NCBI RefSeq assembly: GCF_008042275.1
Contig: NZ_RDBK01000033.1
Span: 34,713-98,712, forward strand
Source of the DNA: Streptomyces sp. OR43
GTDB taxonomy: Bacteria > Actinomycetota > Actinomycetes > Streptomycetales > Streptomycetaceae
DNA length: 64,000 bases
Direction: 5' to 3'
In this document: positions 2,661 through 39,250 of the stretch, piece by piece
How positions within the stretch are numbered: the first letter of the stretch is position 1
How the letters are laid out: each line of letters opens with the position of its first letter
Position numbers and translations under genes: made by a program
The notes under the pieces: generated by a model
What the model saw: the letters and a program-made list of their open reading frames with translations, nothing else
Told to the model about the DNA's origin: nothing
The model's database searches: none

Positions 2661-2687
2661 GACAGGCGGAAAGACCAAGGTGTGACA
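2661..2687 (-). promoter_or_regulatory. ECF41-type promoter toward the secreted hydrolase
   Basis: Read on the minus strand this is TGTCACA, 16 bases, TGTC. It points at the hydrolase starting at 2502. Confidence 0.7.
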
Positions 2688-2721: not shown

Positions 2722-4341
2722 TCAGGGCCGGTGCCGGCCGGTGATCTCCGCGTACTCCGTGGCCGTGGGCTTGGGAACCTGCGTGCCGGGGCCGTAAAGG
2801 AACCTGCTCAGCCCGCTGCGCAGGCGCTGGACCGGGCTGGGTCCGGCGCCGTCCCCGGTGCCGGTGGGCGCGGCCTCCAGGGGTCGGTACTGCTCGTGCG
2901 CGGTCAAGGTGTGCAGCCGGGCCTGGTCGAGGGGCTCGTGGACCTCGGCGTACTCGCCGTGCGGCAGGCGCCTGATGACTCCGCTCTCGCGCCCGTGCAG
3001 CACCTTGTCGCGGTCTTGGCGCTGGAGAGCGAGGGCCACGCGCTTGGTGATCAGGAAGGCCAGCACCGGGACGGCGAAAAGGCCGATGCGCACGGCCCAG
3101 GTCACGGAGTTGACCGAAACGTGCAGACGGATGGCGATGATGTCGTTCGCGGCACCGATGAGCGCGACCGCATAGACGCTGAGCCAGGCCACGCCCAGAG
3201 CGGTGCGCACCGGGCGGTTGCGGGGGCGGTCCAGCAGGTGCTGCTCGCGGTCGTCGTCCGTGACCCAGGCCTCGATGAACGGATAGGCCCCCAGGGCCAA
3301 GAAGAGCAGCACACCGAACAGCAGGGGCAGGAGGTTGTCCAGGGCGAGCGTGTGGCCCCAGAGGCCGATCTCCCAGCCGGGCATGACACGAAGCAGTCCG
3401 TCGGCGACGCCCATGTACCAGTCGGGCTGGGAGCCGGCGGAGACCTGGTCGGGACGGAAGGGGCCGTAGTTCCACACGGGATTGATCTGGGCGACGGCGG
3501 CCATCACGGAGATCACGCCGGCCACGATGAAGCAGGAGGCGGCGGCCTTCACCGCGTACACCCTGAGCGGAAGTCCGACGACGTTGCGGCGGATGCGGCC
3601 GGGGCCGGCGTGCTGCGTGTGCCGGTGGCGCATGACCAAGGCCACGTGAGCGACCGTCAGGGCAATCATGAGGCCCGGAATGACCAGGACGTGCAGGGTG
3701 TTGAAGCGGGCGATCAGATCCTCACCGGGGAACTCACCGCCGAACAGGAAGAACGACAGGTAGGTCCCTACGACCGGGACCGACAGGATCGTGCCGTTCA
3801 CGACCTGGAGGCCGGTGCCGGACAACAGGTCGTCCGGCAGGTCGTAGCCGGTGAGGCCACCGAACATCGCCAGGATGAACAGTCCGAACCCCAAGAGCCA
3901 GTTCAGCTCTCGGGGCTTGCGGAAGGCACCGGTGAAGAAGACCCGCAGCAGGTGGACGAAGACGGCGGCGACGAAGATCAGGGCCGCCCAGTGGTGTGCC
4001 TGGCGGACGAGCAGACCGCCGCGGACGTCGAAGGAGAGGTGCAGCGTCGAGTCGAAGGCCTCCGACACGAGTCGGCCTCTCAGGGGGAGGTAGCTGCCCT
4101 CATAGACCACGAGCTCGGAGGAGGGGTGGAAGTAGAAACTCAGATAGACGCCGGTGATCATCAGGACCACCAGACTGTAGAGCGCGATCTCGCCGAGCAT
4201 GAACGACCAGTGGTCGGGGAAGACCGGGCGCCGAGCCGAGCGGGCGACACCGCGGCGGCCCACTCGGCTGTCCACCCAGCGGGCGACTCCCTCTCCCGTG
4301 TGCCCCTGCTCCGGCTCGACCGGTCGGCTGTCGTAGCCCAT
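2722..4341 (-). CDS. qcrB: Cytochrome bc1 complex cytochrome b subunit (orphan QcrB)
   Basis: This is a 539-residue polytopic membrane protein of normal actinobacterial QcrB length. The four heme-b histidines are visible as two pairs: H116 and H130 (LLVRQAHHW to FVHLLRVFF) and H217 and H232 (FNTLHVLV to VAHVALVM). The quinol-oxidation-site motif appears as QPDWY, and a long hydrophilic C-terminal tail is typical of actinobacteria. In the cell QcrB passes electrons from menaquinol within the bc1-aa3 supercomplex. No qcrA, qcrC or cytochrome oxidase genes are nearby, so this is probably a second, stand-alone copy. Its promoter is of the TGTCACA type, suggesting stress-induced expression. Its 3' end is duplicated in inverted orientation at 1-87. 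Confidence 0.92.
   Translation of the reverse strand: MGYDSRPVEPEQGHTGEGVARWVDSRVGRRGVARSARRPVFPDHWSFMLGEIALYSLVVLMITGVYLSFYFHPSSELVVYEGSYLPLRGRLVSEAFDSTLHLSFDVRGGLLVRQAHHWAALIFVAAVFVHLLRVFFTGAFRKPRELNWLLGFGLFILAMFGGLTGYDLPDDLLSGTGLQVVNGTILSVPVVGTYLSFFLFGGEFPGEDLIARFNTLHVLVIPGLMIALTVAHVALVMRHRHTQHAGPGRIRRNVVGLPLRVYAVKAAASCFIVAGVISVMAAVAQINPVWNYGPFRPDQVSAGSQPDWYMGVADGLLRVMPGWEIGLWGHTLALDNLLPLLFGVLLFLALGAYPFIEAWVTDDDREQHLLDRPRNRPVRTALGVAWLSVYAVALIGAANDIIAIRLHVSVNSVTWAVRIGLFAVPVLAFLITKRVALALQRQDRDKVLHGRESGVIRRLPHGEYAEVHEPLDQARLHTLTAHEQYRPLEAAPTGTGDGAGPSPVQRLRSGLSRFLYGPGTQVPKPTATEYAEITGRHRP
2823..2909 (-). repeat. qcrB 3' segment, partner of the inverted repeat at 1-87
   Basis: This in-gene segment encodes part of the QcrB C-terminal tail. 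Its reverse complement recurs at 1-87 with one mismatch. Upstream of base 1 the duplication may be longer. Confidence 0.9.
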
Positions 4342-4590: not shown

Positions 4591-4617
4591 GACCGGCTGT
4601 ACCGTTCGGGTGTGACA
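4591..4617 (-). promoter_or_regulatory. ECF41-type promoter toward qcrB
   Basis: Read on the minus strand this is TGTCACA, 16 bases, GGTC. It lies 250 bases before the qcrB start, in the gene-less stretch 4342-4679, where I see no other convincing gene. Confidence 0.7.
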
Positions 4618-4679: not shown

Positions 4680-5624
4680 TCAGCGGCGGACCACGTTCTC
4701 GAGTTCCTCATCCGCGGCGAAGCGGATCAGCTGGCAGCGGATGAGCCTTTCGAGGCGAGGCCAGAGGCCAGCGGTGAACGCGCCGATGTGCGGGGTGAGC
4801 AGCACACCGGGTACGGACCGGAGCGGATGTCCCGGGGGAAGCGGCTCGGGGTCCGTCACGTCCAGGGCGGCCCGCAGCCGGCCTTCGTGGGTCTCCTTCA
4901 GCAGGGCGTCGGTGTCGACAACCGCCCCACGGGACACGTTGACGAGCAGGGCGTCGTCCTTCATGCGGGCCAGCATGCCCGCGTCGAAGAGCTGACGGGT
5001 CTTCGGGGTCAGGGGCGTGGACAGCACGACGACGTCCGCGTCCGCCACGAGCCGGGGCAGACGCGCGGTGGAATGGACCGGCCCCAGGAGCGCGTCCCGG
5101 TCCCGACTGGCGACGCGGGTCACCACGCAGCCGAAGGGCAGGAGCAGCTCCTCCAGCGCGGAACCCACGGCGCCGTAGCCCACGATCAGCACGGACCGCT
5201 CGTACAGGGAGGAGAAGACGTGGGTGTCCCCCGCCCCGCGGTCCTGGGCGCGGACCGAATCCGGAATGCCCCGCAGCGAGGTGAGAATCAGCGTCAGGGC
5301 CAGTTCGGCCGTGCCGGGAGCGGCGGCACCGCGCGCGTCGCACAGGGTGACCGGACGGGGAAGCCGGTCGAGCTCTCCTCGTAGTCCGTCCGTGCCCGAA
5401 CTGAGTGCCTGAACCACCCGGAGACGTGTCATGCCGGACAGGGGCTTCCTGATGATGTCGATGTCCTTGGTCAGGGGCGGGGCGTAGAACTCCACCCGAG
5501 CCGGGTCCGAAGGGAAGGCCGAACGGCCGTCCCAGCAGGCGTACTCGAGTGCTGGCGGCAGATCGGCGAGACGGACGAATTGCGCGGGCAGCCATACCTG
5601 GGGTGAGCGTGCGGTCATAACCAT
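4680..5624 (-). CDS. D-isomer 2-hydroxyacid dehydrogenase (NAD(P)-dependent)
   Basis: This is a 314-residue member of the D-2-hydroxyacid dehydrogenase family, which reduces 2-oxoacids such as glyoxylate or hydroxypyruvate. The dinucleotide fold motif GYGAVGSALEE is mid-protein. The catalytic Arg lies in VNVSRGAVVD, the Glu in DVTDPEPLPPGHPL and the His in TPHIGAFT, so the active site looks complete. ATG 5624 was chosen because GGAAG lies just upstream; a second ATG two codons later is possible. A TGTCACA-N16-AGTC promoter sits about 140 bases upstream and is divergent from the methyltransferase promoter. The natural substrate is not clear. Confidence 0.85.
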   Translation of the reverse strand: MVMTARSPQVWLPAQFVRLADLPPALEYACWDGRSAFPSDPARVEFYAPPLTKDIDIIRKPLSGMTRLRVVQALSSGTDGLRGELDRLPRPVTLCDARGAAAPGTAELALTLILTSLRGIPDSVRAQDRGAGDTHVFSSLYERSVLIVGYGAVGSALEELLLPFGCVVTRVASRDRDALLGPVHSTARLPRLVADADVVVLSTPLTPKTRQLFDAGMLARMKDDALLVNVSRGAVVDTDALLKETHEGRLRAALDVTDPEPLPPGHPLRSVPGVLLTPHIGAFTAGLWPRLERLIRCQLIRFAADEELENVVRR

Positions 5625-5763: not shown

Positions 5764-5790
5764 GACTACGCGTGCCACTCCTCTGTGACA
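5764..5790 (-). promoter_or_regulatory. ECF41-type promoter toward the hydroxyacid dehydrogenase
   Basis: Read on the minus strand this is TGTCACA, 16 bases, AGTC. It is divergent from the plus-strand copy at 5851-5877. Confidence 0.7.
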
Positions 5791-5850: not shown

Positions 5851-5877
5851 TGTCACATGCTCGGCCCGCATGCTGTC
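5851..5877 (+). promoter_or_regulatory. ECF41-type promoter of the methyltransferase, probably leaderless
   Basis: TGTCACA, 16 bases, TGTC. The -10-like tetrad ends only 9 bases before the ATG at 5887. Transcription starting 5-10 bases downstream would give a leaderless mRNA, consistent with the lack of a ribosome site. Confidence 0.7.
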
Positions 5878-5886
5878 TTGGTGGGC

Positions 5887-6645
5887 ATGCACCTTGTCAC
5901 CACACCGGCGCCCGTCACTCAGCCGGACTCCTACGCCGTCACCGCCGAGTTCTACGACATCCTGCAGGCCGAGCGAGACGGAGAGCGCGTCCGCGACCTC
6001 TACGCCCGGCAGGTCGCGCAGGCCCGTCTCGGCATACTGGACATCGGTGCCGGGACCGGACGGGTCACGCTGATGAGCCTGGCGGAGTCCGAGGCCGACA
6101 TCCACGCGATCGAACCCGCACGGGCCATGCGCACCTCTCTGCTCACCCGACTCGCCGTCCTGCCGGAGCGTCAGCGGGATCGCGTGACCGTGCACCCGCA
6201 CGCCCTGGACCGGGCGGAGTTGTACGCGGTCGCGGACGTGGCCGTGTGCCACAACACGATCGCCTGTCTGCCACCGGCCGCGCGTCACGTCCTCTGGCCC
6301 GCCGTCCACGCTGCCCTGGCCCCGGGCGGGTCGCTCTTCCTGGAGCTGCCGCCCGAGACGCCGCCCGCTCGCGACATCGTGCACCGGCTGCCGGAGAAGC
6401 GGGTGGGCGCGCACGCGTACGGCGGACGAATGTCCATGTCGGCGGCGGGCTACCGCATCCGCGCGCGCGTCGACTACTGGGTGCGCGACGAGCGCCGAGT
6501 GCTCCGCACGCACTCGGAATCGTTCTGGATGTGGCCCGCGTCGCGCTCCCGGATCGTGGAGGAGCTGGCGCGGCACGGATTCCTCCCACTGCCCGAGCAC
6601 GGCCATCCGCGCGTCCTGGCCGTTTCGCGGCCGGCCCGCTGGTGA
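5887..6645 (+). CDS. Class I SAM-dependent methyltransferase
   Basis: This is a 252-residue protein with the SAM-binding glycine motif LDIGAGTGRV near residue 52, followed by an acidic strand end (IHAIEPAR) and a later strand AVCHNTIACL. This is a class I methyltransferase of the type with domain order seen in small ubiE-like enzymes. A beta-rich C-terminal part (MSMSAAGYRIRARVDYWV) may bind substrate. No substrate can be named. Start choice is guided by the promoter: the -10 element is immediately upstream of ATG 5887, whereas the in-frame ATG at 5857 overlaps the -35 element. It is monocistronic and followed by a second promoter of the same type. Confidence 0.8.
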   Translation: MHLVTTPAPVTQPDSYAVTAEFYDILQAERDGERVRDLYARQVAQARLGILDIGAGTGRVTLMSLAESEADIHAIEPARAMRTSLLTRLAVLPERQRDRVTVHPHALDRAELYAVADVAVCHNTIACLPPAARHVLWPAVHAALAPGGSLFLELPPETPPARDIVHRLPEKRVGAHAYGGRMSMSAAGYRIRARVDYWVRDERRVLRTHSESFWMWPASRSRIVEELARHGFLPLPEHGHPRVLAVSRPARW

Positions 6646-6697: not shown

Positions 6698-6724
6698 TGT
6701 CACACCACGTGTCCTCGCCCGGTC
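6698..6724 (+). promoter_or_regulatory. ECF41-type promoter of the 6785-11358 operon
   Basis: TGTCACA, 16 bases, GGTC, 60 bases before the start of the flavin reductase gene. Confidence 0.75.
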
Positions 6725-6784: not shown

Positions 6785-8047
6785 ATGCCGCGTACTCATG
6801 CGTTCGTGATCGTCGGAGGCGGCCTGGCCGCCGCCAAGGCCGCGGAGGAACTGCGCGAGCACGGCCACCACGGGCCGCTCCTCGTCATCGGGAACGAGCG
6901 GGAACGGCCCTACATCCGGCCACCGCTGTCCAAGGGGTACCTCCTGGGCAAGGAGGGCCGGGACTCCCTCTACGTGCATCCCGAGAGCTGGTATCGGGAC
7001 AACGACGTCGACCTGCTCCTGGGCACGCGTGTGACGTCATTGAACCCACATGCCGCCGAGGTGACGCTGGACGACGGCCGTCGCGTGCCTTACGCGGGGC
7101 TGCTCCTGGCCACCGGTTCCTCGCCCCGCCGCCTGTCCGTGCCGGGCGCGGGGCTGGACGGCGTGCTGTACCTCCGGCGCATGGAGGACAGCGACCGGCT
7201 CAAGGCGGCATTTACCGCAGGTGCGCGGATCGTGGTGGTCGGCGGTGGATGGATCGGACTGGAGACGGCGGCGGCGGCTCGTACGGCCGGGGCGGAAGTG
7301 ACCTTGCTGGAGCGCGGGGAGCTGCCCCTGTCGAAGGTACTGGGCCGGGAGGCGGCCGAGGTCTTCGCCGGCCTTCACATGGACCACGGTGTGGATGTCC
7401 GCTCCCACGCCCGCGTCGAACGCATCACCGGTACCGGGGGCCGCGTCGACGGAGTCCGTCTCGCCGACGGCAGTCACCTGCCCGCAGATGCCGTGGTGGT
7501 GGGCGTCGGCATCACTCCCGACGTCCGTCTGGCCGAGGAGGCCGGCCTCGACGTGCGTAACGGCATCGTGACGGACGCGCACCTGCGGACTTCCGCGGCA
7601 GGCGTCCACGCCGCCGGTGACGTCGCCAACGCCTTCCACCCCCGCCTCGGCCGCCATCTGCGCGTGGAGCACTGGGCCAACGCCCTGCATCAGCCGCGTA
7701 CCGCCGCGCTGAGCATGCTCGGCCGGGAAGCGGTGTACGACCGGCTGCCGTACTTCTACACCGACCAGTACGACCTCGGCATGGAGTACACCGGGTACAC
7801 GGAACCGGGCGGCTACGACCGCGTCGTCTTCCGCGGCTCACGGGAAGAGCTCCGGTTCGTGGCGTTCTGGATGTCCGGCAGACGGGCGCTGGCCGGGATG
7901 AGCGTCAACGTGTGGGATGTCATCGGAACGGTCCGCGCTCTGATCGAGTCGGGCGTGGAGACGGAAGATGCCGTCCTCGCCGATCCCTCGGTTCCGCTGG
8001 AAAGCCTGATTCCCGCGCACGTGCGAGCAGACCGAGCCCAGTCATGA
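6785..8047 (+). CDS. FAD-dependent NAD(P)H:ferredoxin reductase family protein
   Basis: This is a 420-residue two-dinucleotide-domain flavoprotein of the rhodocoxin/putidaredoxin reductase type. The N-terminal FAD motif is VIVGGGLAAAKAAEEL. The central NAD(P)H motif is VVVGGGWIGLETAAAA, and the second FAD motif is AAGDVANAF followed by a reductase C-terminal domain. Such enzymes move electrons from NAD(P)H to a ferredoxin or small redox protein. It is the first gene of an operon (its stop overlaps the ATG of the PIG-L gene). No dedicated ferredoxin follows; the ferredoxin at 13761-14147, behind the same promoter type, is a candidate partner. Confidence 0.85.
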   Translation: MPRTHAFVIVGGGLAAAKAAEELREHGHHGPLLVIGNERERPYIRPPLSKGYLLGKEGRDSLYVHPESWYRDNDVDLLLGTRVTSLNPHAAEVTLDDGRRVPYAGLLLATGSSPRRLSVPGAGLDGVLYLRRMEDSDRLKAAFTAGARIVVVGGGWIGLETAAAARTAGAEVTLLERGELPLSKVLGREAAEVFAGLHMDHGVDVRSHARVERITGTGGRVDGVRLADGSHLPADAVVVGVGITPDVRLAEEAGLDVRNGIVTDAHLRTSAAGVHAAGDVANAFHPRLGRHLRVEHWANALHQPRTAALSMLGREAVYDRLPYFYTDQYDLGMEYTGYTEPGGYDRVVFRGSREELRFVAFWMSGRRALAGMSVNVWDVIGTVRALIESGVETEDAVLADPSVPLESLIPAHVRADRAQS

Positions 8048-8787
8048 CCGGCCGTACGCCCGCACCACTGCGGCCGATGCCGGACGACTGGCGACGGGCC
8101 CTGGCCGTGGTGGCCCATCCCGACGATCTCGAGTACGGATGCTCGGCGGCCGTGGCCTCCTGGGTGGCCGCCGGCAGGGAGGTCACCTACGTGCTCGCCA
8201 CCCGGGGTGAGGCGGGCATCGACACGCTGGCTCCCGAGCGGGCCCGGGTGCTGCGGGAGGCGGAGCAGCGTGCCGCCGCCGCGGCCGTCGGCGTCAGCGT
8301 GGTGGAGTTCCTCGACCACCGGGACGGTGTGGTCGAGTACGGCGTCCCGCTGCGGCGCGACATCGCCGCGGCCGTGCGGCGTCACCGTCCCGAGCTGGTG
8401 ATCACGCTGAACCACCGGGACACGTGGGCCCCCGGTGCCTGGAACACCCCGGACCACAGGGCGGTGGGACGCGCGGTGCTGGACGCGGCCGCGGACGCCG
8501 GCAACCGCTGGATCTTCCCGGAACTCACCGAGCGGGGACTTCCGCCCTGGAACGGCGTGCGATGGGTGGCCGTCGCCAACTCGCCCACGCCGTCCCACGC
8601 CGTGTCCGCCCGGGCCGGCTTCGAACGGGGGGTGCAGTCCCTGCTGCGGCACCGGACCTACATCGAAGCCCTGACCGAGGAGGACCCCGAGACGTACGCG
8701 CGCCGCTTCCTGTCCGCCGGCACCGGCGCCCACCGTGCCCGGTTCGACGGCGGTCCCGCTGTCGCCTTCGAACTGTTCAGCCGATGA
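8044..8787 (+). CDS. PIG-L family deacetylase
   Basis: This is a 247-residue zinc-dependent N-deacetylase of the PIG-L/MshB/LmbE fold. The metal-binding motif AHPDDLEYGC is near residue 25, and the downstream metal-site His is in TPDHRAVGRAV. Family members remove acetyl groups from N-acetylglucosamine-type sugars such as mycothiol precursors or teicoplanin-like glycans. The ATGA overlap with the preceding gene shows tight translational coupling. The pairing with LuxE/LuxC-like genes suggests a tailoring role in a small pathway rather than mycothiol synthesis, but this is inference. Confidence 0.85.
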   Translation: MTGRTPAPLRPMPDDWRRALAVVAHPDDLEYGCSAAVASWVAAGREVTYVLATRGEAGIDTLAPERARVLREAEQRAAAAAVGVSVVEFLDHRDGVVEYGVPLRRDIAAAVRRHRPELVITLNHRDTWAPGAWNTPDHRAVGRAVLDAAADAGNRWIFPELTERGLPPWNGVRWVAVANSPTPSHAVSARAGFERGVQSLLRHRTYIEALTEEDPETYARRFLSAGTGAHRARFDGGPAVAFELFSR

Positions 8788-8866
8788 CCAGGTCCCTCGG
8801 CTGTCGCGCGGCTCTCGTCCCCATCACCGTTCTTCCGCACGAGCCCGTGCCGGGAAAGGACCGATC

Positions 8867-9967
8867 ATGACGTACGACTACCTCTCCGTCCTGGACGCCG
8901 GGCCCTCCGACGGCGTCGACCCCGACCAGTTCGTACGCGCGGCCGTGCGCTGGCACTTCGACCCGGCGACCGGCTCCCGCTACTGGCTCGACCGGGCCGA
9001 ACGGCTCGACTTCGACCCGCGGCGGGACATCAGGGGCGTCGACGACCTGTCGCTCTTCCCCGACCTGACCGGCGAACTGCGCCATGTCCCGGTGGCCGAC
9101 CTGATCCCCCGGGGGTACGGCGGCGACGCCCGGCTGCTCAACGTCTTCGACAGCGGCGGTACGACCGGGGCGCCCAAGCGGGTCGTGCAGCTCGACGACT
9201 GGACGCGGCACAGCACCGCGCAGGTCGACACACGTCTGCGGGAGCACGGGCTGCCCACCGGTGCACAGTGGCTGACCGTGGCGCCGACCGGCCCGCACCT
9301 CGTGGGGGACGTGCTCCAGAGGGCGGCGGCGTCCCTCGGCGGCCCGGGGCTGAGCATCGACATGGACCCGCGGTGGGTCAGGAAGCTGATCGCCGCGGGC
9401 CGGAGCGAGGAGGTCGAGTCCTATACCGACCATCTCGTCGAACAGTGCCGGCGCGTTCTGCTGACCCAGGACATCGGGGTGCTGGCCGCCACCACTCCGC
9501 TGCTGGAGCGCTTCGCCCGCGAGGACGACCTCCTGGAGCGGATCAACGCCTCCGTCCGGGCCATCGTCTGGGGCGGCACGCACATGGACCCCGACACCCG
9601 TCATCTGCTGGCCACGGAGGTCTTCCCCGACGTGCCGCTCATCGGCATGTACGGCAACACCATGATGCTCACCGCACTGCTCGAGCGAGCCGGCCTCGGC
9701 TCCTCGCAGCCCTGCGTCTTCGACCCGGTGTCGCCGTACGTGTTCCTCTCCGTCGTCGACCCCGCCACCAAGGAACGCGTCGAGGTGGGCCGGCGGGGTC
9801 AGGTGGTGGTCAGCCACGTCAGCAAGTCCATGCTCATCCCGAACAACGCCGAACGGGACACGGCCGTACGCGCACTTCCGGTGAGCGGCCACGCCGGCGA
9901 CGCCGTGGCGGACGTGGCACCCGTGACCACGGTGAAGGGCGAGACCGTGATCGAGGGTGTGTACTGA
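8867..9967 (+). CDS. LuxE/PaaK-like acyl-activating enzyme
   Basis: This is a 366-residue adenylate-forming protein. The phosphate-binding loop appears as DSGGTTGAPKRVV around residues 95-107, and IGMYGNTMMLTAL may form the adenine-binding part. It is shorter than the usual 430-residue PaaK phenylacetate-CoA ligase and close to the roughly 370 residues of LuxE, the acyl-protein synthetase of bacterial fatty-acid reductase. It would activate a carboxylic acid as acyl-AMP and hand it to a thiol. The next gene, with a TGATG overlap, encodes a LuxC-like reductase, so the pair probably converts an acid to an aldehyde. ATG 8867 follows a GGAAAGGA ribosome site. Confidence 0.7.
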   Translation: MTYDYLSVLDAGPSDGVDPDQFVRAAVRWHFDPATGSRYWLDRAERLDFDPRRDIRGVDDLSLFPDLTGELRHVPVADLIPRGYGGDARLLNVFDSGGTTGAPKRVVQLDDWTRHSTAQVDTRLREHGLPTGAQWLTVAPTGPHLVGDVLQRAAASLGGPGLSIDMDPRWVRKLIAAGRSEEVESYTDHLVEQCRRVLLTQDIGVLAATTPLLERFAREDDLLERINASVRAIVWGGTHMDPDTRHLLATEVFPDVPLIGMYGNTMMLTALLERAGLGSSQPCVFDPVSPYVFLSVVDPATKERVEVGRRGQVVVSHVSKSMLIPNNAERDTAVRALPVSGHAGDAVADVAPVTTVKGETVIEGVY

Positions 9968-11358
9968 TGGCCGCGGCAGACGCCCCCGAACCGCTGTACC
10001 TGGACGCGCTGGGCCATCGCGGCCCCTACCGCACCCGCGTACCGGGCAGGGTGACGGACGTGTCCGGTGCCGAGGTGGCGCGGCTCAGCCTGGTACCGCC
10101 GGTCTACGTCGACCGGGCGCTGGCCGCACTGCGCAGAGCCGACGCGTTCCCTCCGGCCGGCCTTGACGCGCTGCTGGAAGTGGCCGCCGAGGAGTTCGCC
10201 AACGGCACCGTCGGCGGGCTCGGCGTGCGGGAGTACGAGCACCTGGTCAGCAGGACCTCAGGTACTCCGCTGGCCGTGGTGCGCGACGCGACCCGGGGCA
10301 CCGCGCGATTCGTCAGCCGCGCACGTTCGTCCGCCGAGCAGGGCAGGCCGCGCGGGACGGTCCGGGACGGACGGGATCCCTCATCCGCGGCCGGGCACGC
10401 CGTGTGGGCGCGTAGGGGCGAGGTGTTCGCCGTCAACGCCTCCGGCAATCACCCCGGCGTCCACCGGGTGTGGCTGGAGGCACTGGCCCTGGGCTACCGC
10501 GTCGCCGTACGGCCGTCGCGACGGGAGCCGTTCACCCCGCACCGCCTGGTCGGGGCACTCCACCGGGCGGGCGTCGGGACGGACCGGCTGGTGTTGCTGC
10601 CGACGGACCACCACACCGCGGGAACTCTGATCCGCGGCGCCGACCGCGCCGTCGTGTACGGCGGCGACGAAGTCGTCGCCCGCTACGCGCACGATGCGCG
10701 TGTGCTGCCTCAGGGGCCCGGCAGGACGAAGATCCTCGTCACCGCGGACACGGACTGGCGCGAGCACCTGGACACGATCGTGGGGTCCGTCGCCGACGAA
10801 GCGGGCACCGCGTGCGTCAACGCCACCGCCGTATTCGTCGAGGGCGACCCGGCACCGCTCGCCGAGGCCCTCGCCGCGCGTCTGTCCCGGCTGCCGGGCC
10901 TGCCGCCCCAGGACTCCCGCGCGGTTCTCCCGGTGTGCCCGTTCGACAGGGCTCGGGCGCTCGACTCCTACCTGCGGTCGGTCGCGATGGGGACCCGCGC
11001 CTGGCTCGGTGGGGACGGCATCGTCGAGGACCTCGGGGATGGCAGCGCCGTCCTGCGACCGGCCGTTCATCAGGTCGTCGACGCCGGCGCCCCGCAGCTG
11101 CGGACCGAACTGCCCTTCCCCTGCGTGTGGGTGGCTCCGTGGAAGCGCTCGGACGGAGTTGCTCCGCTGCGGGAGACGCTGGTGCTCTCGGTCCTCTCCC
11201 GCGATCGTGCACTGCTCGACCTGCTGGTGGCGGAACCCACCATCGCGAATGTGTACGCGGGTGACCATCCGACCTACTGGATGGCTCCAGGAGTGCCCCA
11301 CGACGGCTATCTCTCGGACTTCCTGATGCGCGGCAAGGCCGTCGTGGGCGTCGGCTGA
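9967..11358 (+). CDS. LuxC-like acyl-CoA/acyl-protein reductase (ALDH superfamily)
   Basis: This 463-residue protein has an aldehyde-dehydrogenase-like fold. The cofactor region VFAVNASGNHPGVH and the likely catalytic cysteine in DEAGTACVNATAV match the LuxC/acyl-CoA reductase group, which forms a thioester with an activated acid and reduces it with NADPH to an aldehyde. Its ATG overlaps the stop of the LuxE-like gene, so the two are translated together. There are no luxAB luciferase genes here, hence bioluminescence is not implied. The product is more likely an aldehyde intermediate or a detoxification step. It is convergent with the membrane protein gene at 11365. Confidence 0.72.
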   Translation: MAAADAPEPLYLDALGHRGPYRTRVPGRVTDVSGAEVARLSLVPPVYVDRALAALRRADAFPPAGLDALLEVAAEEFANGTVGGLGVREYEHLVSRTSGTPLAVVRDATRGTARFVSRARSSAEQGRPRGTVRDGRDPSSAAGHAVWARRGEVFAVNASGNHPGVHRVWLEALALGYRVAVRPSRREPFTPHRLVGALHRAGVGTDRLVLLPTDHHTAGTLIRGADRAVVYGGDEVVARYAHDARVLPQGPGRTKILVTADTDWREHLDTIVGSVADEAGTACVNATAVFVEGDPAPLAEALAARLSRLPGLPPQDSRAVLPVCPFDRARALDSYLRSVAMGTRAWLGGDGIVEDLGDGSAVLRPAVHQVVDAGAPQLRTELPFPCVWVAPWKRSDGVAPLRETLVLSVLSRDRALLDLLVAEPTIANVYAGDHPTYWMAPGVPHDGYLSDFLMRGKAVVGVG

Positions 11359-12224: not shown

Positions 12225-13121
12225 ATGCACGCTGGCGCCCGACCCGGCACCCTTGATCAAGCGACGAAGGATTTCCTCGCGGCCCGACCGCAGCTCTTCG
12301 GCATCGCGTACCGCATCCTGGGCAGCACGGCCGAGGCCGAGGACATCGTGCAGGATGCCTGGCTGCGGTGGCAGAACACCGATCGTTCGCAGGTGCACGA
12401 ACCGGCTGCCTTCCTGACCACGGTAGCCACGAGGCTGGCGATCAACCTGGCCCAGTCCGCTCGGGTACGCCGGGAGTCCTACATCGGACCGTGGCTTCCC
12501 GAGCCCGTCGACACCGCGCAGGATCCACAACTGGGCGCGGAGCGGGCCGAGGCCCTGGAGATGGCGGTCCTGCTCCTGATGGAGAAGTTGAACCCCGTGG
12601 AGCGCACCGCCTACGTGCTCCGGAAGGCGTTCGACTACTCCTACGGACGCATCGCGGAGATCCTGGAGACCACTGAGGCGAACGCGCGCCAGTTGGTCAG
12701 CCGCGGCCGGAGGCACTTGGCCGCCGAGCGCAAGGAGGCCGTCAGCCCCAAAGCCCACCGACGGCTGCTGGAGGTGTTCCTGTCCGCGGCACGGACCGGC
12801 GATCTGTCCGTGCTGGAGGACGTGCTCACCGCCGACGTCGTCAGCTACTCGGACGGCAACGGCATGCGCGGCGCGTCCAGGATCCCGGTCATCGGGCGGC
12901 TGCACGTCTCTCAGTACCTCGTGGCGTTCGCTCCGCGCTTCTGGCCGCGATCGGAGATCAGGTGGGTCGAGGCGAACGGCAGGCCGGCCGTGTTGGTCTC
13001 GTCCGACGACGAAGCCGTCGCCCTGCTGACCGCCGACATCTCGGCGGATGGTATCGACCGGCTCATGTGGGTGATGAGCCCGGCCAAACTGGCGCCGTAC
13101 GTGGCCTCTCTGCGCGGCTGA
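12225..13121 (+). CDS. sigJ: ECF41-group sigma factor with SnoaL-like C-terminal domain
   Basis: This is a 298-residue sigma factor. Region 2 (about residues 20-85) carries GIAYRILGSTAEAEDIVQDA, then the ECF41 linker WLPEP at residues 90-94, and region 4 spans about 110-165. A C-terminal NTF2/SnoaL-like domain (about 175-298) is the regulatory extension that replaces an anti-sigma factor in ECF41 proteins. The family signatures DGGGK and NPDKL are altered here to SDGNGM (209-214) and SPAKL (285-289). It is closely similar to the sigma at 18425, sharing the block around YIGPWLPEPVDT. ATG 12225 has an AGAAGGGA ribosome site. I see no clear TGTCACA element in front of it. It is a candidate activator of the repeated promoters in this island. 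Confidence 0.88.
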   Translation: MHAGARPGTLDQATKDFLAARPQLFGIAYRILGSTAEAEDIVQDAWLRWQNTDRSQVHEPAAFLTTVATRLAINLAQSARVRRESYIGPWLPEPVDTAQDPQLGAERAEALEMAVLLLMEKLNPVERTAYVLRKAFDYSYGRIAEILETTEANARQLVSRGRRHLAAERKEAVSPKAHRRLLEVFLSAARTGDLSVLEDVLTADVVSYSDGNGMRGASRIPVIGRLHVSQYLVAFAPRFWPRSEIRWVEANGRPAVLVSSDDEAVALLTADISADGIDRLMWVMSPAKLAPYVASLRG

Positions 13122-13760: not shown

Positions 13761-14147
13761 TCAGGAGGGGAACCACAGATCTGCGTCGGCCGCTTCTTCC
13801 TTACGGACGCTGAAGACGGATATGCCCTTCTTCCGTGAACTCTGCCGGGGGAGTGCCTCGACGACGGGGTGATCACCGGGGGCGTCACGCTGTCCCCGCG
13901 GCTCGGATCCCCGCGTTTCGAAGTACTCCCCATTGACGGCGAGATAGTGGGCCCAGTGCCGCGGCAGATCGTCCTCGTGGAAGATGGCCTCCACCGGGCA
14001 GACAGGTTCACACGCATGGCAGTCGACGCACTCCGCCGGGTGGATGTAGAGCGTGCGTGAACCCTCGTAGATGCAGTCCACGGGGCACTCGGTGACGCAG
14101 GCCCGGTCCTTGATGTCGACACAGGGCTGTGCGATGACGTACGTCAT
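13761..14147 (-). CDS. fdxA: Ferredoxin with two iron-sulfur clusters (probable 7Fe type)
   Basis: This is a 128-residue ferredoxin. The cysteines are C9, C17, C21, C25 and C40, C43, C46, C50, a pattern close to the 3Fe-4S plus 4Fe-4S ferredoxins of actinobacteria (CVDIKDRACVTECPVDC, then CVDCHACEPVCPVEAI). The conserved acidic and Trp-containing region DDLPRHWAHYL follows. The C-terminal 40 residues are basic and unusual compared with the typical 105-110-residue FdxA. ATG 14147 has an AGGAGAG ribosome site. It is transcribed from the left arm of a back-to-back pair of TGTCACA promoters, opposite a fumarate-reductase-like flavoprotein. The two may exchange electrons. Confidence 0.88.
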   Translation of the reverse strand: MTYVIAQPCVDIKDRACVTECPVDCIYEGSRTLYIHPAECVDCHACEPVCPVEAIFHEDDLPRHWAHYLAVNGEYFETRGSEPRGQRDAPGDHPVVEALPRQSSRKKGISVFSVRKEEAADADLWFPS

Positions 14148-14215: not shown

Positions 14216-14242
14216 GACCGGGGACGGCGACATGGTGTGACA
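14216..14242 (-). promoter_or_regulatory. ECF41-type promoter of the ferredoxin gene
   Basis: Read on the minus strand this is TGTCACA, 16 bases, GGTC. Only 15 bases separate it from the divergent copy at 14258. Confidence 0.75.
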
Positions 14243-14257: not shown

Positions 14258-14284
14258 CGTCACAAACGGCCGCCTGACCTGGTC
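14258..14284 (+). promoter_or_regulatory. ECF41-type promoter of the flavoprotein gene
   Basis: CGTCACA, 16 bases, GGTC, 35 bases before the GTG start. It is back to back with the ferredoxin promoter. Confidence 0.7.
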
Positions 14285-14319: not shown

Positions 14320-16050
14320 GTGCCTCTCACCGAACAACGTCTATCCACCACGGTGCTGGTGATCGGTACCGGCGGGGCCGGCCTGCGGGCGGCGATCGAG
14401 CTGGCCGAGGCCGGTGTCGACGTCATCGCCGTCGGCAAGCGCCCCAAGGAGGACACCCACACCTCCCTGGCTGCCGGCGGCATCAACGCGGCCCTGGCCA
14501 CCATGGACCCCGAGGACTCCTGGCAGCAGCACGCCGCGGACACGCTGAAGGAGAGCTACCTGCTCGGCGACCCCCGCACCGCCGAAATCGTCACCCGTGG
14601 CGCGGCCCTGGGCATCGACGACCTGGAGCGGTACGGCATGGCCTTCGCCCGCGAAGAGGACGGCCGCATCTCGCAGCGCTTCTTCGGTGCCCACACGTTC
14701 CGCCGTACGGCCTTCGCCGGTGACTACACCGGCCTGGAGATCCAGCGCACTCTCATCCGGCGCGCGAACCAGCTGAACATACCGATGCTGGACAGCGTGT
14801 ACATCACACGTCTCCTGGTCCACGACGGTGCCGTCTTCGGGGCCTACGGCTTCGACCTGGCCAACGGCACCCGGCACCTCGTGCACGCGGACGCCGTCAT
14901 CCTCGCGGCCGGGGGGCACACACGCATCTGGCGGCGCACCTCATCGCGCCGGGACGAGAACACCGGCGACTCCTTCCGACTGGCGGTCGAGGCCGGAGCC
15001 CGCCTGCGCGACCCCGAACTGGTGCAGTTCCACCCGTCCGGCATCATCGAACCGGAGAACGCCGCCGGGACCCTGGTCAGCGAGGCCGCCCGCGGTGAGG
15101 GCGGCGTCCTGCGCAACGCCCTCGGCGAGCGGTACATGAACCGCTACGACCCCGAGCGCATGGAACTCTCCACGCGCGACCGCGTGGCCCTGGCGTCCTA
15201 CACAGAGATCAGAGAAGGCCGTGGCACGGCCAACGGAGGGGTCTGGCTCGACGTCTCCCACCTGCCCCGTCAGACGATCATGAGCCGGCTGCCCCGGGTG
15301 TACCAGACGCTCCTGGACCTGCAGATGCTCGACATCACCCGGGATCCCATCGAGGTGGCCCCCACGGCGCACTACTCGATGGGCGGCGTCTGGGTACGTC
15401 CCGAGGACCACAGCACCGACGTCCGGGGCCTGTACGCCATCGGTGAGGCATCCAGCGGTCTGCACGGTGCCAACCGCCTGGGCGGCAACAGCCTGATCGA
15501 GCTCCTCGTCTACGGCCGCATCACCGGCCGGGCCGCTGCCGCGTACTCGGAGTCGCTCACCGCGCAGCCCCGGTCCACGACCGCTGTGGCACACGCGCGT
15601 TCCGAGGTCGACGCACTCCTCGCCGCCGACGGGCCCGAGAACGTCCGCGCGCTCCAGCGAGCCATCCGCGACACCATGACCCAGCACGCGGGTGTCGTCC
15701 GGGACGACGAGGGGCTGCGTACCGGCTTGGCGGAACTGGACACCATCGAGAAGCGCATGCAGAACGTCGGGGTCCATCCCGACATCGCCGGCTTCCAGGA
15801 CCTCGCCCACGCCTTCGACCTCAAGTCGGCGGCGCTGGCGGCGCGCGCCACCCTCGAAGCGGCGCTGGAACGCAGGGAGACCCGTGGTTGTCACAACCGC
15901 AGCGACTTCCCCGACATGGATCCTGCCTTCCGCGTCAACCTCGTCTGGTCCCCGGCGACCGGTATCACACACGAGCCCATTTCCGCCGTGCCCGACGAGA
16001 TCTTGTCCCTCATGGCGGAAGTCTCCACCGAGGGAAAGCTCGTCGAGTAA
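14320..16050 (+). CDS. Fumarate reductase/succinate dehydrogenase-like flavoprotein (orphan)
   Basis: This is a 576-residue flavoprotein of the SdhA/FrdA/NadB superfamily. The FAD motif is VLVIGTGGAGLRAAIELAEA at the N terminus. Substrate-site elements include ELVQFHPSGI, the Arg in STRDRVALA and the His in TAHYSMGGV. A helical C-terminal domain ends in FRVNLVW. It lacks partner iron-sulfur and membrane subunits, so it is either an L-aspartate oxidase relative or a soluble fumarate-reductase-like enzyme fed by another donor. The divergent ferredoxin, sharing the promoter region, is an obvious candidate. GTG 14320 has GGGAG 6 bases upstream. Confidence 0.85.
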   Translation: MPLTEQRLSTTVLVIGTGGAGLRAAIELAEAGVDVIAVGKRPKEDTHTSLAAGGINAALATMDPEDSWQQHAADTLKESYLLGDPRTAEIVTRGAALGIDDLERYGMAFAREEDGRISQRFFGAHTFRRTAFAGDYTGLEIQRTLIRRANQLNIPMLDSVYITRLLVHDGAVFGAYGFDLANGTRHLVHADAVILAAGGHTRIWRRTSSRRDENTGDSFRLAVEAGARLRDPELVQFHPSGIIEPENAAGTLVSEAARGEGGVLRNALGERYMNRYDPERMELSTRDRVALASYTEIREGRGTANGGVWLDVSHLPRQTIMSRLPRVYQTLLDLQMLDITRDPIEVAPTAHYSMGGVWVRPEDHSTDVRGLYAIGEASSGLHGANRLGGNSLIELLVYGRITGRAAAAYSESLTAQPRSTTAVAHARSEVDALLAADGPENVRALQRAIRDTMTQHAGVVRDDEGLRTGLAELDTIEKRMQNVGVHPDIAGFQDLAHAFDLKSAALAARATLEAALERRETRGCHNRSDFPDMDPAFRVNLVWSPATGITHEPISAVPDEILSLMAEVSTEGKLVE

Positions 16051-16088: not shown

Positions 16089-16115
16089 TGTCACAGAAGA
16101 AGTGAGTACCCGGTC
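16089..16115 (+). promoter_or_regulatory. ECF41-type promoter of the NmrA-like gene
   Basis: TGTCACA, 16 bases, GGTC, about 45 bases before ATG 16160. Confidence 0.75.
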
Positions 16116-16159: not shown

Positions 16160-16906
16160 ATGAAGGTCGTAGTCATCGGCGGAACCGGTCTGATCGGCTC
16201 GAAGCTGGTATCTAAGCTCAACGAGCACGGTCACGAGGCGGTGCCCGCCGCTCCCAACACCGGCGTCAACACGCTCACGGGCGAGGGCCTGGCCGAGGTC
16301 CTGACCGGCGCCTCCGTCGTGGTCGACGTCTCCAACTCCCCCTCGTTCGAGGACGAGGCCGTCATGGAGTTCTTCCGCACCTCCACCACCAACCTCCTCA
16401 AGGCCGAGGCGAACGCCGGTGTGACGCACCACGTGGCGCTGTCCGTGGTGGGCACGGAGCGGCTCCAGGAGAGCGGCTACTTCCGTGCCAAGCAGGCACA
16501 GGAGGGTCTGATCAAGGAATCGGGCATCCCGTACTCCGTCGTGCACGCCACGCAGTTCTTCGAGTTCATGAAGGGCATCGCCGAGTCGGCGACCGACGGT
16601 GACACCGTCCGGCTGGCGCCGGTCAGGATCCGGCCCATCTACTCGGACGACGTGGCCGCCGCCGTCGGCCGCACGGCGGTGGGGACACCGGTGGGCGGAG
16701 TCGTCGAGGTCGCCGGCCCGGAGGAGTTCCAGCTCGACGAGTTGATCCGCAAGGGCCTGGCCGCAAAGAAGGACCCTCGCCAGGTGGTGACCGACGTGCA
16801 CGCTCCGTACTTCGGTGCGGAATTGCAGGAGGCAACGCTGCTTCCCGGTCCGGACGCGCAGATCGCCGCGACCCGTTTCGCCGACTGGCTCGCGCAGCAG
16901 CACTGA
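16160..16906 (+). CDS. NmrA-like/atypical SDR NAD(P)-binding protein
   Basis: This is a 248-residue Rossmann protein. The dinucleotide motif VVVIGGTGLIGSKLV is at the N terminus; the middle has HHVALSVVGTERL and the YFRAKQAQE segment carrying the Tyr/Lys region. It resembles NAD(P)H-binding oxidoreductases and epimerase-like proteins of the extended SDR group. ECF41 loci in many bacteria control one neighbouring gene of the carboxymuconolactone decarboxylase, oxidoreductase or epimerase kind, and this gene fits that class. It has its own TGTCACA promoter and may be co-transcribed with the YceI gene 160 bases downstream. Confidence 0.85.
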   Translation: MKVVVIGGTGLIGSKLVSKLNEHGHEAVPAAPNTGVNTLTGEGLAEVLTGASVVVDVSNSPSFEDEAVMEFFRTSTTNLLKAEANAGVTHHVALSVVGTERLQESGYFRAKQAQEGLIKESGIPYSVVHATQFFEFMKGIAESATDGDTVRLAPVRIRPIYSDDVAAAVGRTAVGTPVGGVVEVAGPEEFQLDELIRKGLAAKKDPRQVVTDVHAPYFGAELQEATLLPGPDAQIAATRFADWLAQQH

Positions 16907-17781: not shown

Positions 17782-18048
17782 TCAGGCGGCATTCTCCGCC
17801 GTACACCGCACACGTACCGGACGCCGTCGCAGGGCGCGGCGCTCCCGTTCCGTGGTACCTCCCCATATGCCCTCGACCGGTCCCATCTCGACGGCCCACG
17901 CCAGGCACCGCTGCATGACGGGGCAACGGCGGCAGACCGCTTTCGCGTCCTCCGTCTGTATCGTCACCGGCCCACTGTTGATGCTTCCGACCGGAAAGAA
18001 GAGTTCAGGGTCTTCACGCAGGCAGAGGCCCCGCACACGCCAATTCAT
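17782..18048 (-). CDS. WhiB family iron-sulfur transcription factor
   Basis: This is an 88-residue WhiB-like protein. The four cluster-binding cysteines are C9, C39, C42 and C48 (CRRCPVMQRC), followed by the family turn GIWGG and a basic tail (RERRALRRRPVRVR). Wbl proteins hold a redox- and NO-sensitive 4Fe-4S cluster and usually act with the primary sigma factor. ATG 18048 follows an AGGAG ribosome site, discarding the longer upstream frame. It has a TGTCACA-N16-GGTC promoter, so the island's sigma factor may switch on a second regulatory layer. Confidence 0.92.
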   Translation of the reverse strand: MNWRVRGLCLREDPELFFPVGSINSGPVTIQTEDAKAVCRRCPVMQRCLAWAVEMGPVEGIWGGTTERERRALRRRPVRVRCTAENAA

Positions 18049-18144: not shown

Positions 18145-18171
18145 GACCGGACGCCCGGTGCGGGTGTGACA
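18145..18171 (-). promoter_or_regulatory. ECF41-type promoter of the WhiB gene
   Basis: Read on the minus strand this is TGTCACA, 16 bases, GGTC, about 100 bases before ATG 18048. Confidence 0.75.
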
Positions 18172-18424: not shown

Positions 18425-19345
18425 ATGCATCCAGAGGCGCCCCCCGTGGAAGGCGACCTGAACGAAGCCGTTTCCGTCTTCGTGGAACTCCGGCCCCGCC
18501 TGTTCGGCATCGCCTATCGCGTGCTGGGCAGTTCGGTGGAGGCCGAGGACGTCGTCCAGGAAGTGTGGCTGCGCTGGCAGCGGACGGACCGTAGCGTCGT
18601 GATCAGCCCCATCGCCTTCCTGTCGAGCACCACCACCCGGCTGGCCATCAACGTGGCTCAGTCGGCCCGCGTCCGCCGCGAGACCTACATCGGTCCGTGG
18701 CTGCCCGAGCCCGTCGACACCAGCCACGACCCGGAGGTCGGCGCCGAGCGGGCGGAAGCGCTGGAGTTCGCCCTGCTCCTGGTACTGGAGAGGCTCTCCC
18801 CGACCGAGCGCGCCGCGTACGTCCTGAGGGAAGCTTTCGACTACGGCTATCCCGAGATCGCGCAGATCCTGCGGCTCAGTCCCGTCAACGTGCGGAAAAT
18901 CGTGAGCCGCGCACGCAGGCACCTCACCGACGACCAGCGGGACAGCGTCGATGCCACCGAACACCGGACGCTGCTCCAGGCCTTCGTCGCCGCGGCCCAG
19001 AAGGGCGATGTCGCCGGCCTGGAAGCTCTGCTCACCCCCGACGCGGTCAGCCTGTCGGACGGGAACGGCATCCGCGGAGCGGCTCGGGTCCCCGTCCTCG
19101 GCCGTGCGCGTGTGGCGAACCTGTCCACGGCGTACCCCCGATTCTGGCCGACGATCGAGGCGGAGCCGGTGGAGGCCAACGGACGCGGTGGCATCCTGCT
19201 CCGCAGGGAAGGCCGGCCCGCCACCTTCATGACGATCGCGGCCACGTCCCGTGGCATCCACCAGGTGATGTGGGTCTTCAACCCGGCGAAGATCGCCGCC
19301 TTCCTGCACTCCGCCGGCCGATCCGCGGTGGTCAGCCGTGCCTGA
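18425..19345 (+). CDS. sigJ: Second ECF41-group sigma factor
   Basis: This is a 306-residue paralogue of the sigma at 12225. Region 2 contains GIAYRVLGSSVEAEDVVQE, the ECF41 linker WLPEP is at residues 92-96, and region 4 includes PEIAQILRLSPVNVRKIVSR. The SnoaL-like C-terminal domain carries SDGNGI and NPAKI in place of the usual DGGGK and NPDKL. Long identical blocks with the first sigma (for example INVAQSARVRRE versus INLAQSARVRRE) point to gene duplication. ATG 18425 follows GGAGGCCGAGGG. Its 3' end overlaps the convergent ECF41-like gene by 14 bases. Confidence 0.88.
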   Translation: MHPEAPPVEGDLNEAVSVFVELRPRLFGIAYRVLGSSVEAEDVVQEVWLRWQRTDRSVVISPIAFLSSTTTRLAINVAQSARVRRETYIGPWLPEPVDTSHDPEVGAERAEALEFALLLVLERLSPTERAAYVLREAFDYGYPEIAQILRLSPVNVRKIVSRARRHLTDDQRDSVDATEHRTLLQAFVAAAQKGDVAGLEALLTPDAVSLSDGNGIRGAARVPVLGRARVANLSTAYPRFWPTIEAEPVEANGRGGILLRREGRPATFMTIAATSRGIHQVMWVFNPAKIAAFLHSAGRSAVVSRA

Positions 19346-20246
19346 GCGGGCCCCCTGCCGCAGCACGTGGCCGGACACAGGGGCGGTTCCAGGAGCGCAG
19401 CTTGTCAGGGTTGAGGACAACCCAGACCTGTACGACCCGGGCGCCGGCCATGTCGAGGCCGACGACTGCGGCGACCTGATCGCCGTAGCGGACGACGAGA
19501 CCGGCGCGCCCGTTGACAGGACTGGTGTGCAGGGTGGTGCGCGGGTGCCGGCCGAACAGTGTCAGCAGGCTTCGAGCGACCCGGGCGCCGCCGATGACAG
19601 GTCGCGTCAGCGTGCGGACCTTGCCTCCGCCGTCGTAGAACACGGCTGCGTCGGGGTCCAGCAGGGAGGTCAGGCGGTCGACGTCCTCGGCGGCACACGC
19701 GTCGCGTACCGCGTCGACCAGTTCGTCCTTCCGGCGCCCCGAAATGGGCCGGGCCGCACCGGCCGACTGGCTGTGCCGGGCCCGGTCCAACGGCTCCACG
19801 GAGACCGGGCCGGGCAGGCGGGTGCCGGACCGGCCCGGGGTTCCCACGGATTCCCGGGCGGCGACGGCGAAGACGTCGCGTACCGGCGCGGCTCGCTCCG
19901 CAGGTGCCGGCCTGCCCGAAGTCCCCGCCCCCTGCGCGCCGGTGTCCTCCTGCGGTCCCGACCCGAAGCCCTCACAGGTCCGCGCGAGTGCCGCTGGTTC
20001 ACCGGCCTGAGCAAAGGCGTCCAGCCGCGCCAGACAGATGCTTCCCACCACCTGGGTCAGCCAGGTCCGCGGTGTCCCTATGCGGCCCCGCTGGCGATCG
20101 GACAGCCCGTACCACTCCCGGTAGGCCTCGTCGGTGACGAGCTCGGCGGCGACGCCACTGCCCAGCATCCAGTGTGCGACTTCCAGCAGATGCCGCCGCT
20201 CATCGAGCAGCTCCGCGATCGGCATGGTGTCAACCGCCGGTTCCAT
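19332..20246 (-). CDS. ECF41-like protein with degenerate sigma domains
   Basis: This is a 304-residue protein. The last 130 residues are a clear ECF41 SnoaL-like domain with the canonical signatures FYDGGGK and LNPDKL. The N-terminal half aligns only loosely with a sigma factor (HLLEVAHWMLGSGVAAELVTDEAYREWYGL). The acidic VQE-type core-binding motif of region 2 is gone, and region 4 is largely replaced by a Pro/Gly/Arg-rich stretch, leaving only a trace (PAERAAPVRDVFAV). It is unlikely to act as a sigma factor. ATG 20246 has an AGGAGGA ribosome site, so it looks translated. It could modulate the true sigma factors or sense a ligand. Confidence 0.7.
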   Translation of the reverse strand: MEPAVDTMPIAELLDERRHLLEVAHWMLGSGVAAELVTDEAYREWYGLSDRQRGRIGTPRTWLTQVVGSICLARLDAFAQAGEPAALARTCEGFGSGPQEDTGAQGAGTSGRPAPAERAAPVRDVFAVAARESVGTPGRSGTRLPGPVSVEPLDRARHSQSAGAARPISGRRKDELVDAVRDACAAEDVDRLTSLLDPDAAVFYDGGGKVRTLTRPVIGGARVARSLLTLFGRHPRTTLHTSPVNGRAGLVVRYGDQVAAVVGLDMAGARVVQVWVVLNPDKLRSWNRPCVRPRAAAGGPLRHG

Positions 20247-23613: not shown

Positions 23614-23647
23614 GGTGTCCTCTGTTCCTCTCGGCTTCACCCGTTAA

Positions 23648-23674
23648 GACCGCCCGGCGCCGCACCGTGTGACA
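23648..23674 (-). promoter_or_regulatory. ECF41-type promoter of the NDH-2 gene
   Basis: Read on the minus strand this is TGTCACA, 16 bases, GGTC. Confidence 0.75.
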
Positions 23675-24600: not shown

Positions 24601-24627
24601 TGTCACACGATCTGCTTCCGTGCGGTC
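24601..24627 (+). promoter_or_regulatory. ECF41-type promoter of the second degenerate ECF41-like gene
   Basis: TGTCACA, 16 bases, GGTC, about 70 bases before ATG 24699. Confidence 0.75.
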
Positions 24628-30102: not shown

Positions 30103-30158
30103 AGATGGTGTCTCCTCACGCGGTGCCGGGGGACGGCACCGCTTTTCCGGCACGCTGG

Positions 30159-30926: not shown

Positions 30927-31137
30927 GATTCCTCCTTCGTAGGGTCTGTTCCGGAGTGCCTGTCAGAGATACACCAGGACGACGGCATGTCCAGCCGGTG
31001 GCACCGATTCGGTGCGAAACCTGAAAATTCAACTTCTTTCGTGCGGGCTATTGCCAAGCCCAACCGGCGCCCGTACGTTACACGCCAGTCCACAAGGCGG
31101 TCTACGAAAACCGCTAGATGGCTTGTCTGGAGAAGTG

Positions 31138-34385: not shown

Positions 34386-34390
34386 TTCCC

Positions 34391-35545: not shown

Positions 35546-35596
35546 CCAGCCCGTCGAGCCGAGAGCCGGGCTCCGCACCGGCATCAGGGAGCCACC

Positions 35597-39047: not shown

Positions 39048-39207
39048 GCGGGCGAAGGCCGGGGCGTGGACTCCGCGGAACGCACCTCCGGTCCGGGCAG
39101 GCCTTGACCAGCCGCCGGGGCGAGCGGGTGGTCGAGGAAGCCAAACGGCCGGGCCGGCCCCCGGCTTGCTCCGGAAGCAACCGGGCCCGACAGGGACGCG
39201 CACGCGT

Positions 39208-39250
39208 ACGACGGGGCGGGCGGAAGCATGGCTGCCGCCCGCCCCGTCGT
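39208..39250 (+). terminator. Perfect 16-base hairpin after the Liv operon
   Basis: The arms ACGACGGGGCGGGCGG and CCGCCCGCCCCGTCGT pair fully around an 11-base loop. It lies in the 400-base gap between livF and the flavoprotein gene; no T-run follows. Confidence 0.6.

Follow-up and report, generated by a model that had tools for sequence, protein, structure and literature searches.

A 64,000-nt stretch of the Streptomyces sp. OR43 genome (positions 34713-98712 of contig C68 in the 9.1-Mb host genome, hereafter the window) carries a four-gene operon with an ECF41-type promoter in front of it and a gene for an ECF41 sigma factor behind it. The two distal genes of this operon encode an adenylating enzyme and a reductase of the aldehyde dehydrogenase (ALDH) fold, which the initial annotation had described as LuxE/LuxC-like and which we assign here, with high confidence, to the EhpF/EhpG kind of enzyme pair as a new member. 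The operon and its candidate regulator are laid out as follows.

6698-6724, plus strand: ECF41-type promoter of the operon, TGTCACA-N16-GGTC, motif starting 87 nt before the first gene
6785-8047, plus strand: ferredoxin-NAD(P)+ reductase (FdR), accessory gene, Pyr_redox_2 and Reductase_C
8044-8787, plus strand: PIG-L/LmbE metal-dependent deacetylase, accessory gene, LnmX-like, with HPDD and DH motifs present
8867-9967, plus strand: EhpF-type adenylating enzyme (labelled LuxE), ANL superfamily, without a C-terminal domain
9967-11358, plus strand: EhpG-type ALDH-fold reductase (labelled LuxC), alternative start at 9970
12225-13121, plus strand: ECF41 sigma factor (SigJ type), candidate regulator, at a conserved position in orthologous loci

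All four genes claimed initially lie where they had been placed, and a codon-usage gene finder returned the identical operon gene set with slightly different start codons. Their description as overlapping or nearly abutting is accurate for the FdR and PIG-L genes, which share 4 nt, and for the LuxE-like and LuxC-like genes, which abut or overlap in TGATG, and slightly generous for the 79-nt gap between the PIG-L and LuxE-like genes. The first product had been called a flavin reductase; it is a ferredoxin reductase of the ring-dioxygenase type.

The LuxE-like protein matches the EhpF crystal structures (3l2k/3hgu) with 278 bits over residues 18-366, nearly its full length. In the plasmid-borne phenazine cluster of Pantoea agglomerans, ordered PhzA/B, PhzD, PhzE, PhzF, PhzG, AMP-binding protein and aldehyde-dehydrogenase-family protein, the letters of the AMP-binding protein coincide with the displayed part of the EhpF crystal sequence, and the proteins at the EhpF and EhpG positions share 41% and 35% identity with the window proteins, in the same gene order. 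The pair from a phenazine cluster on a Burkholderia ubonensis plasmid is 51% and 56% identical to the window proteins, and ehpF and ehpG are also annotated in the phenazine cluster of Proteus mirabilis BL95 (PMC11278526). With full-length similarity, about 366 residues, an ANL phosphate-binding loop and no C-terminal domain, the first enzyme has the hallmarks of the EhpF family, and the second those of the EhpG type, namely the ALDH fold, the catalytic Cys and Asn, and a gene directly beside an EhpF-type gene. General Pfam matches on the pair are weak (AMP-binding, on the LuxE-like protein) or partial (Aldedh, on the reductase). Membership in LuxCE is rejected on profile searches of the whole genome at E<=10, in which Pfam LuxC (PF05893) gave five matches, none at the reductase gene, and Pfam LuxE (PF04443) gave zero; the former profile matches 11 of 14 control genomes, the latter five, none above its cut-off. 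Matches of the reductase to ubiquitin in the PDB sequence search were short and judged spurious.

An AF2 model of the reductase (pLDDT 91) adopts the ALDH fold (Z 35); the matches listed by the fold searches included no solved LuxC or EhpG, which has no bearing on membership. A profile alignment with betaine aldehyde dehydrogenase places Cys282 (reductase residues are counted from codon 2) at the catalytic Cys and column 248 at the ELGG-motif Glu. Cys282, Asn160 and Lys254 are invariant in 27/27 aligned EhpG-like proteins, in which column 248 holds either Gln or Asn and in no case Glu; the window reductase has Gln248. The EhpF-like protein carries the ANL loop SGGTTGAPKR at residue 96 and terminates at residue 366, the same end as EhpF.

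Conservation was assessed in orthologous loci picked by query-derived patterns or scores, which are not a random sample. The LuxC-like gene follows the LuxE-like gene in all 31 loci examined, while upstream of the pair both FdR and PIG-L are found in 11, one of them in 3, neither in 15 and a contig end in 2. The conserved four-gene order suggested initially is therefore rejected as a unit, being present in only 11/31 loci, mostly from one Streptomyces subgroup; the LuxE-LuxC pair is the conserved core, and FdR and PIG-L are accessory. In two loci (L043, L048) FdR lies elsewhere in the surrounding region under an ECF41-type motif of its own, and most orthologues share a recurring neighborhood of DUF5134, ECF41, FdxA, SdhA-like and Ohr genes, with losses between strains. 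The accessory deacetylase aligns with LnmX (PDB 5bmo) at 272 bits across almost the whole protein and scores well below the cut-offs of the mycothiol and bacillithiol deacetylases (63 vs 182.5 bits for BshB1, 29.5 vs 277 for Mca and 20.4 vs 224 for MshB). The closest orthologous loci with names are from Streptomyces, and 119 of 393 sampled genomes of the genus hold some LuxE-like homologue. A paralogue group (L113-L116, in G360, G384, G164 and G055) has the reverse order, LuxC before LuxE, beside DUF305/DUF3105 and without ECF41 motifs.

The ECF41-type promoter claimed for the operon is present at 6698-6724. The published ECF41 consensus (PMC3426412) is TGTCACA, a spacer of 16+-1 and CGTC; the -35 element and the spacer agree with it, and the -10 element, GGTC, is one base off. 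Across 13 FdR promoters (the window and 12 orthologous loci, each chosen for holding the motif) the -35 and -10 elements are invariant, 13/13, against a mean identity of 65% in the 30 nt upstream, which argues that the motif before the operon is not a chance occurrence. The 9.1-Mb genome holds 17 copies of the strict TGTCACA-N16-GGTC, of which 13 fall in the 8.8-59.3 kb interval of contig C68 (hereafter the island); a first-order Markov model predicts 0.07 for the contig, and a reversed-motif control occurs once in the genome. In 27 orthologous loci, noncoding DNA accounts for 16% of the sequence and for the midpoints of 180/187 motif matches, and 163 matches are oriented towards a gene start at most 350 nt away. 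FdR has the motif in front of it in 11/11 loci, and the LuxE-like gene itself has it in 13, nearly all of which have no FdR and PIG-L there. Most orthologous loci have an ECF41-type promoter ahead of the first gene of the unit; at L052 the LuxE start was mis-called, and the motif was counted as an orphan. Among 61 genomes of the genus, strict motifs mostly number 0-3, with 17 in the host, 24 in G020, which has an orthologue, and 6-12 in a few others. Further clusters of 3-7 strict motifs lie at G011:C1:143.7-161.0 kb, G049:C1:1.0196-1.0288 Mb and G027:C1:4.504-4.514 Mb, in genomes outside the set with a LuxE match in the 393-genome sample.

Relatives of the pair are found in six Streptomyces phenazine clusters, in Nocardia beside AurF, PabAB-type (chorismate-enzyme) and aminotransferase genes, and in one Streptomyces cluster with an aromatic amino-acid lyase, a 3-hydroxyacyl-CoA dehydrogenase, a P450 and an aldehyde dehydrogenase; its neighbors are variable in Ktedonobacteria, Solirubrobacterales and sphingomonads. 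The known genomic contexts of EhpF/EhpG thus point to aromatic acids, and not to the long-chain aldehydes initially linked to the pair. The window pair is neither in nor with a phenazine core cluster, and PhzA/B is absent from the host genome in a search that, run identically, finds it in three phenazine-cluster genomes; because of this absence, with the positive controls working, an endogenous phenazine is an unlikely substrate. In the phylogenetic tree the orthologues (>=74% identity) group in a single clade (support 100) outside the phenazine pairs, and a recent escape of the island pair from a Streptomyces phenazine cluster is not supported by this placement. Pair-bearing phenazine clusters of Streptomyces, Burkholderia and Proteus each encode a small protein of ~110-118 aa after phzE (L117 3161-3517, with no Pfam match; L146 6545-6880; Proteus mirabilis BL95 QCK92_15865).

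Bera et al. 2010 reportedly found EhpF to be devoid of a C-terminal domain and an ehpF deletion to accumulate phenazine-1,6-dicarboxylate, and are said to have proposed that EhpF/EhpG yield a formyl compound via an adenylate. By analogy, the EhpF-like enzyme of the window would convert an aromatic acid and ATP to an acyl-AMP, and the acyl group would be handed directly to Cys282 of its EhpG-like ALDH-fold partner, since the EhpF-like enzyme has no C-terminal phosphopantetheine/CoA half-domain. The Cys282 thioester would then be reduced by NAD(P)H to the aldehyde, and hydrolysis back to the acid should be disfavored by the replacement of the ALDH general-base Glu with Gln/Asn. FdR and PIG-L would not be needed for this core reaction. 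Within a regulon under an ECF41 sigma factor of the island, the pair would form one unit next to further redox genes; its probable task is to modify, in a redox or electrophile response, an aromatic acid that is external or is produced by the cell elsewhere.

From homology, catalytic residues, fold, pair conservation, and the enrichment and conservation of the motif, all obtained computationally, we infer the catalytic activity, substrate class, ECF41 control and physiological role of the pair, and on balance favor its interpretation as an EhpF/EhpG-type two-protein aryl-carboxylic-acid reductase acting as a unit of an ECF41 regulon in a redox or electrophile response. An aromatic substrate is likely, and a role in the response to redox or aromatic compounds is proposed tentatively. 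Several observations weigh against this interpretation. The island clade is not nested among the phenazine pairs but stands separate on a long stem, and therefore its substrate may differ from theirs; the clade holds no member of established substrate or activity. The EhpF/EhpG reaction itself is reportedly a proposal, drawn by Bera et al. 2010 from structure and mutant. In L039, L043 and L048 the scan places no motif immediately ahead of the unit that holds the pair, and the island encodes several ECF41-like factors, any of which could be the acting one. Finally, ECF41 control, which we regard as very probable, is read from a motif whose -10 element is GGTC vs the published CGTC.

The same evidence bears on two other physiological roles. 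The pair could detoxify phenazine carboxylic acids of soil competitors, or similar redox-active aryl acids, which would induce the ECF41 regulon, given that the closest homologues with names work in phenazine clusters, that PhzA/B is missing from the host, and that the regulon neighbors comprise redox genes (OsmC-type, NDH-2, WhiB-like, cytochrome b, CMD) and an MFS transporter. However, the island clade branches apart from the phenazine pairs, turning the acid into an aldehyde would not clearly lower its toxicity, and the proposal comes without an established inducer; we consider it unlikely. Similarly doubtful is the production under ECF41 control of a small aromatic aldehyde metabolite or pigment, tailored by methyltransferase and redox genes: a motif-bearing methyltransferase gene lies just upstream, relatives of the pair reside in biosynthetic clusters with AurF, ACP/KS or DAHP synthase, and the PIG-L protein resembles LnmX of the leinamycin cluster, but the island genes checked included none identified as forming an aromatic acid, and the neighbors are generic redox genes that vary between strains.

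Alternatively, the TGTCACA-N16-GGTC elements could be sites of another regulator rather than ECF41 promoters, given that the -10 is one base off CGTC, that such a box could be common to another DNA-binding protein, and that the ECF41 assignment comes from sequence. This seems quite improbable, as the -35 TGTCACA is reported to be ECF41-specific (PMC3426412), the spacer of 16 fits 16+-1, the island has at least two ECF41-type genes, and genes for COE-type partners (CMD, NAD(P)H-binding) carry the motif too. A LuxC/LuxE-like fatty-acid reductase producing long-chain aldehydes would follow the same reaction logic, with an acyl-activating enzyme beside an ALDH-type reductase, but is highly improbable in view of the silence of Pfam LuxC at the reductase gene even at E 10 and of Pfam LuxE genome-wide, the matches to EhpF and EhpG, and the aromatic contexts of their relatives. 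The favored interpretation, an aryl-carboxylic-acid reductase, retains the initial idea of an acid-to-aldehyde module that lacks luciferase. At 43868-44734 on the minus strand, ~33 kb from the operon, a gene encodes a protein of the luciferase-like monooxygenase family (partial Bac_luciferase match, 54 bits).

The candidate regulator at 12225-13121 has the Sigma70 regions 2 and 4 and the C-terminal extension of SigJ-type ECF41 factors, scoring 334.4 bits with TIGR02957 (cut-off 323.25) and 270.1 vs 271 with PRK09636 SigJ. Further motifs on either side of the operon and a second ECF41-like factor are listed below; locus counts refer to orthologous loci.

2661-2687, minus strand: motif (-10 TGTC) before an alpha/beta hydrolase gene (1660-2502), also in 4/12 loci
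4591-4617, minus strand: promoter before a cytochrome b gene (2722-4341), 11/13 loci
5764-5790, minus strand: motif (-10 AGTC) before a 2-hydroxyacid dehydrogenase gene (4680-5618), 4/5 loci
5851-5877, plus strand: motif (-10 TGTC) before a methyltransferase gene (likely start, 5887-6645), 10/11 loci
14216-14242, minus strand: promoter before the ferredoxin FdxA gene (13761-14147), 18/19 loci
14258-14284, plus strand: variant CGTCACA-N16-GGTC before an SdhA-like flavoprotein gene (14320-16050), with canonical TGTCACA in 20/20 orthologous loci
16089-16115, plus strand: promoter before an NAD(P)H-binding protein gene (16160-16906)
18145-18171, minus strand: promoter before a WhiB-like gene (~17782-18048, minus strand; Whib 84.6 bits)
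18425-19345, plus strand: second ECF41-like sigma factor, Sigma70_r2/r4
23648-23674, minus strand: promoter before an NDH-2-like flavoprotein gene (22261-23640)
24601-24627, plus strand: promoter 98 nt upstream of a degenerate ECF-like open reading frame (24699-25664, plus strand)

More motif-bearing genes across the window and the upstream contig encode NAD(P)H-binding, OsmC, CMD, WhiB-like and NDH-2 proteins. The WhiB-like gene at 17782-18048 (minus strand), ~120 nt downstream of its motif, was overlooked by the codon-usage gene finder, and the open reading frames at 19332-20246 (minus strand) and 24699-25664 (plus strand) resemble degenerate ECF sigma factors and have no Pfam match. Further along, 27902-41165 holds a catabolic-looking block with genes for a citrate-synthase-like protein, a CoA-transferase III, an IclR regulator, an aldehyde dehydrogenase, a TPP enzyme, a periplasmic-binding-protein transporter and an FAD enzyme.

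What appears to be new is the multi-promoter, stress-type ECF41 island of 50 kb, as judged from its motifs. We give about even chances to the broader view that a subset of Streptomyces has a dedicated ECF41 island, in which a regulon of about a dozen promoters is physically clustered with ECF41 factors of its own and has taken in an aryl-carboxylate reductase akin to the tailoring pair of phenazine clusters. If true, this would point to aromatic or quinone-like compounds as a signal, and to our knowledge no established signal is known for ECF41 factors; the aryl-acid reductase suggests a compound class to try as inducer, and the conserved island with its 13 strict promoters offers a testable ECF41 regulon. 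It would also overturn the single-target rule published for ECF41 factors, a conclusion of Wecke et al. 2012 (PMC3426412), where these factors are described as common among actinobacteria and as numbering at least four in each Streptomyces genome. In the literature searched, with most subscription papers outside its coverage, there was no multi-promoter ECF41 regulon in Streptomyces. Furthermore, with this pair a carboxylic acid reductase family that has been little studied, apparently does not depend on CoA and may be of use in biocatalysis would gain a branch outside phenazine biosynthesis.

Among known systems, EhpF/EhpG of the Pantoea agglomerans D-alanylgriseoluteic acid cluster likewise combine an adenylating enzyme without a C-terminal domain with a following ALDH-family reductase, whereas the window pair lies outside a phenazine cluster, in a host without PhzA/B, in a separate clade and behind an ECF41-type promoter. 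The initial statement that no described pathway has this set stands for the four genes together, within the literature searched, and falls for the pair, which is described in phenazine biosynthesis, in partial agreement with the initially named refuting case of a known enzyme-pair route. GriC/GriD of grixazone biosynthesis in Streptomyces griseus are two proteins that convert an aryl acid (3,4-AHBA) to the aldehyde via an acyl-AMP (PMC10179220); the two-protein chemistry is alike, the comparison being by description only, and no grixazone genes were recognised at the locus. A reading of the cluster-18/LuxE-like loci L096 and L101-L108 as GriC/GriD loci was not supported by the Pfam matches of the neighbors in L102 and L108 (acyl-CoA dehydrogenase, HAD hydrolase, acyltransferase-like). 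LuxE/LuxC of the luciferase fatty-acid reductase complex share the logic of activating an acid and reducing the acyl intermediate to the aldehyde, but the window proteins have no Pfam LuxC or LuxE match; the PIG-L protein resembles LnmX, and no leinamycin-type cluster was recognised at the locus. Finally, the ECF41-COE units of Wecke et al. 2012 (PMC3426412) share with the island the -35 TGTCACA, the spacer of 16, nearby ECF41 factors, and CMD and NAD(P)H-binding partners, whereas the island differs in its 13 strict motifs within 50 kb, its many non-COE genes and its -10 GGTC.

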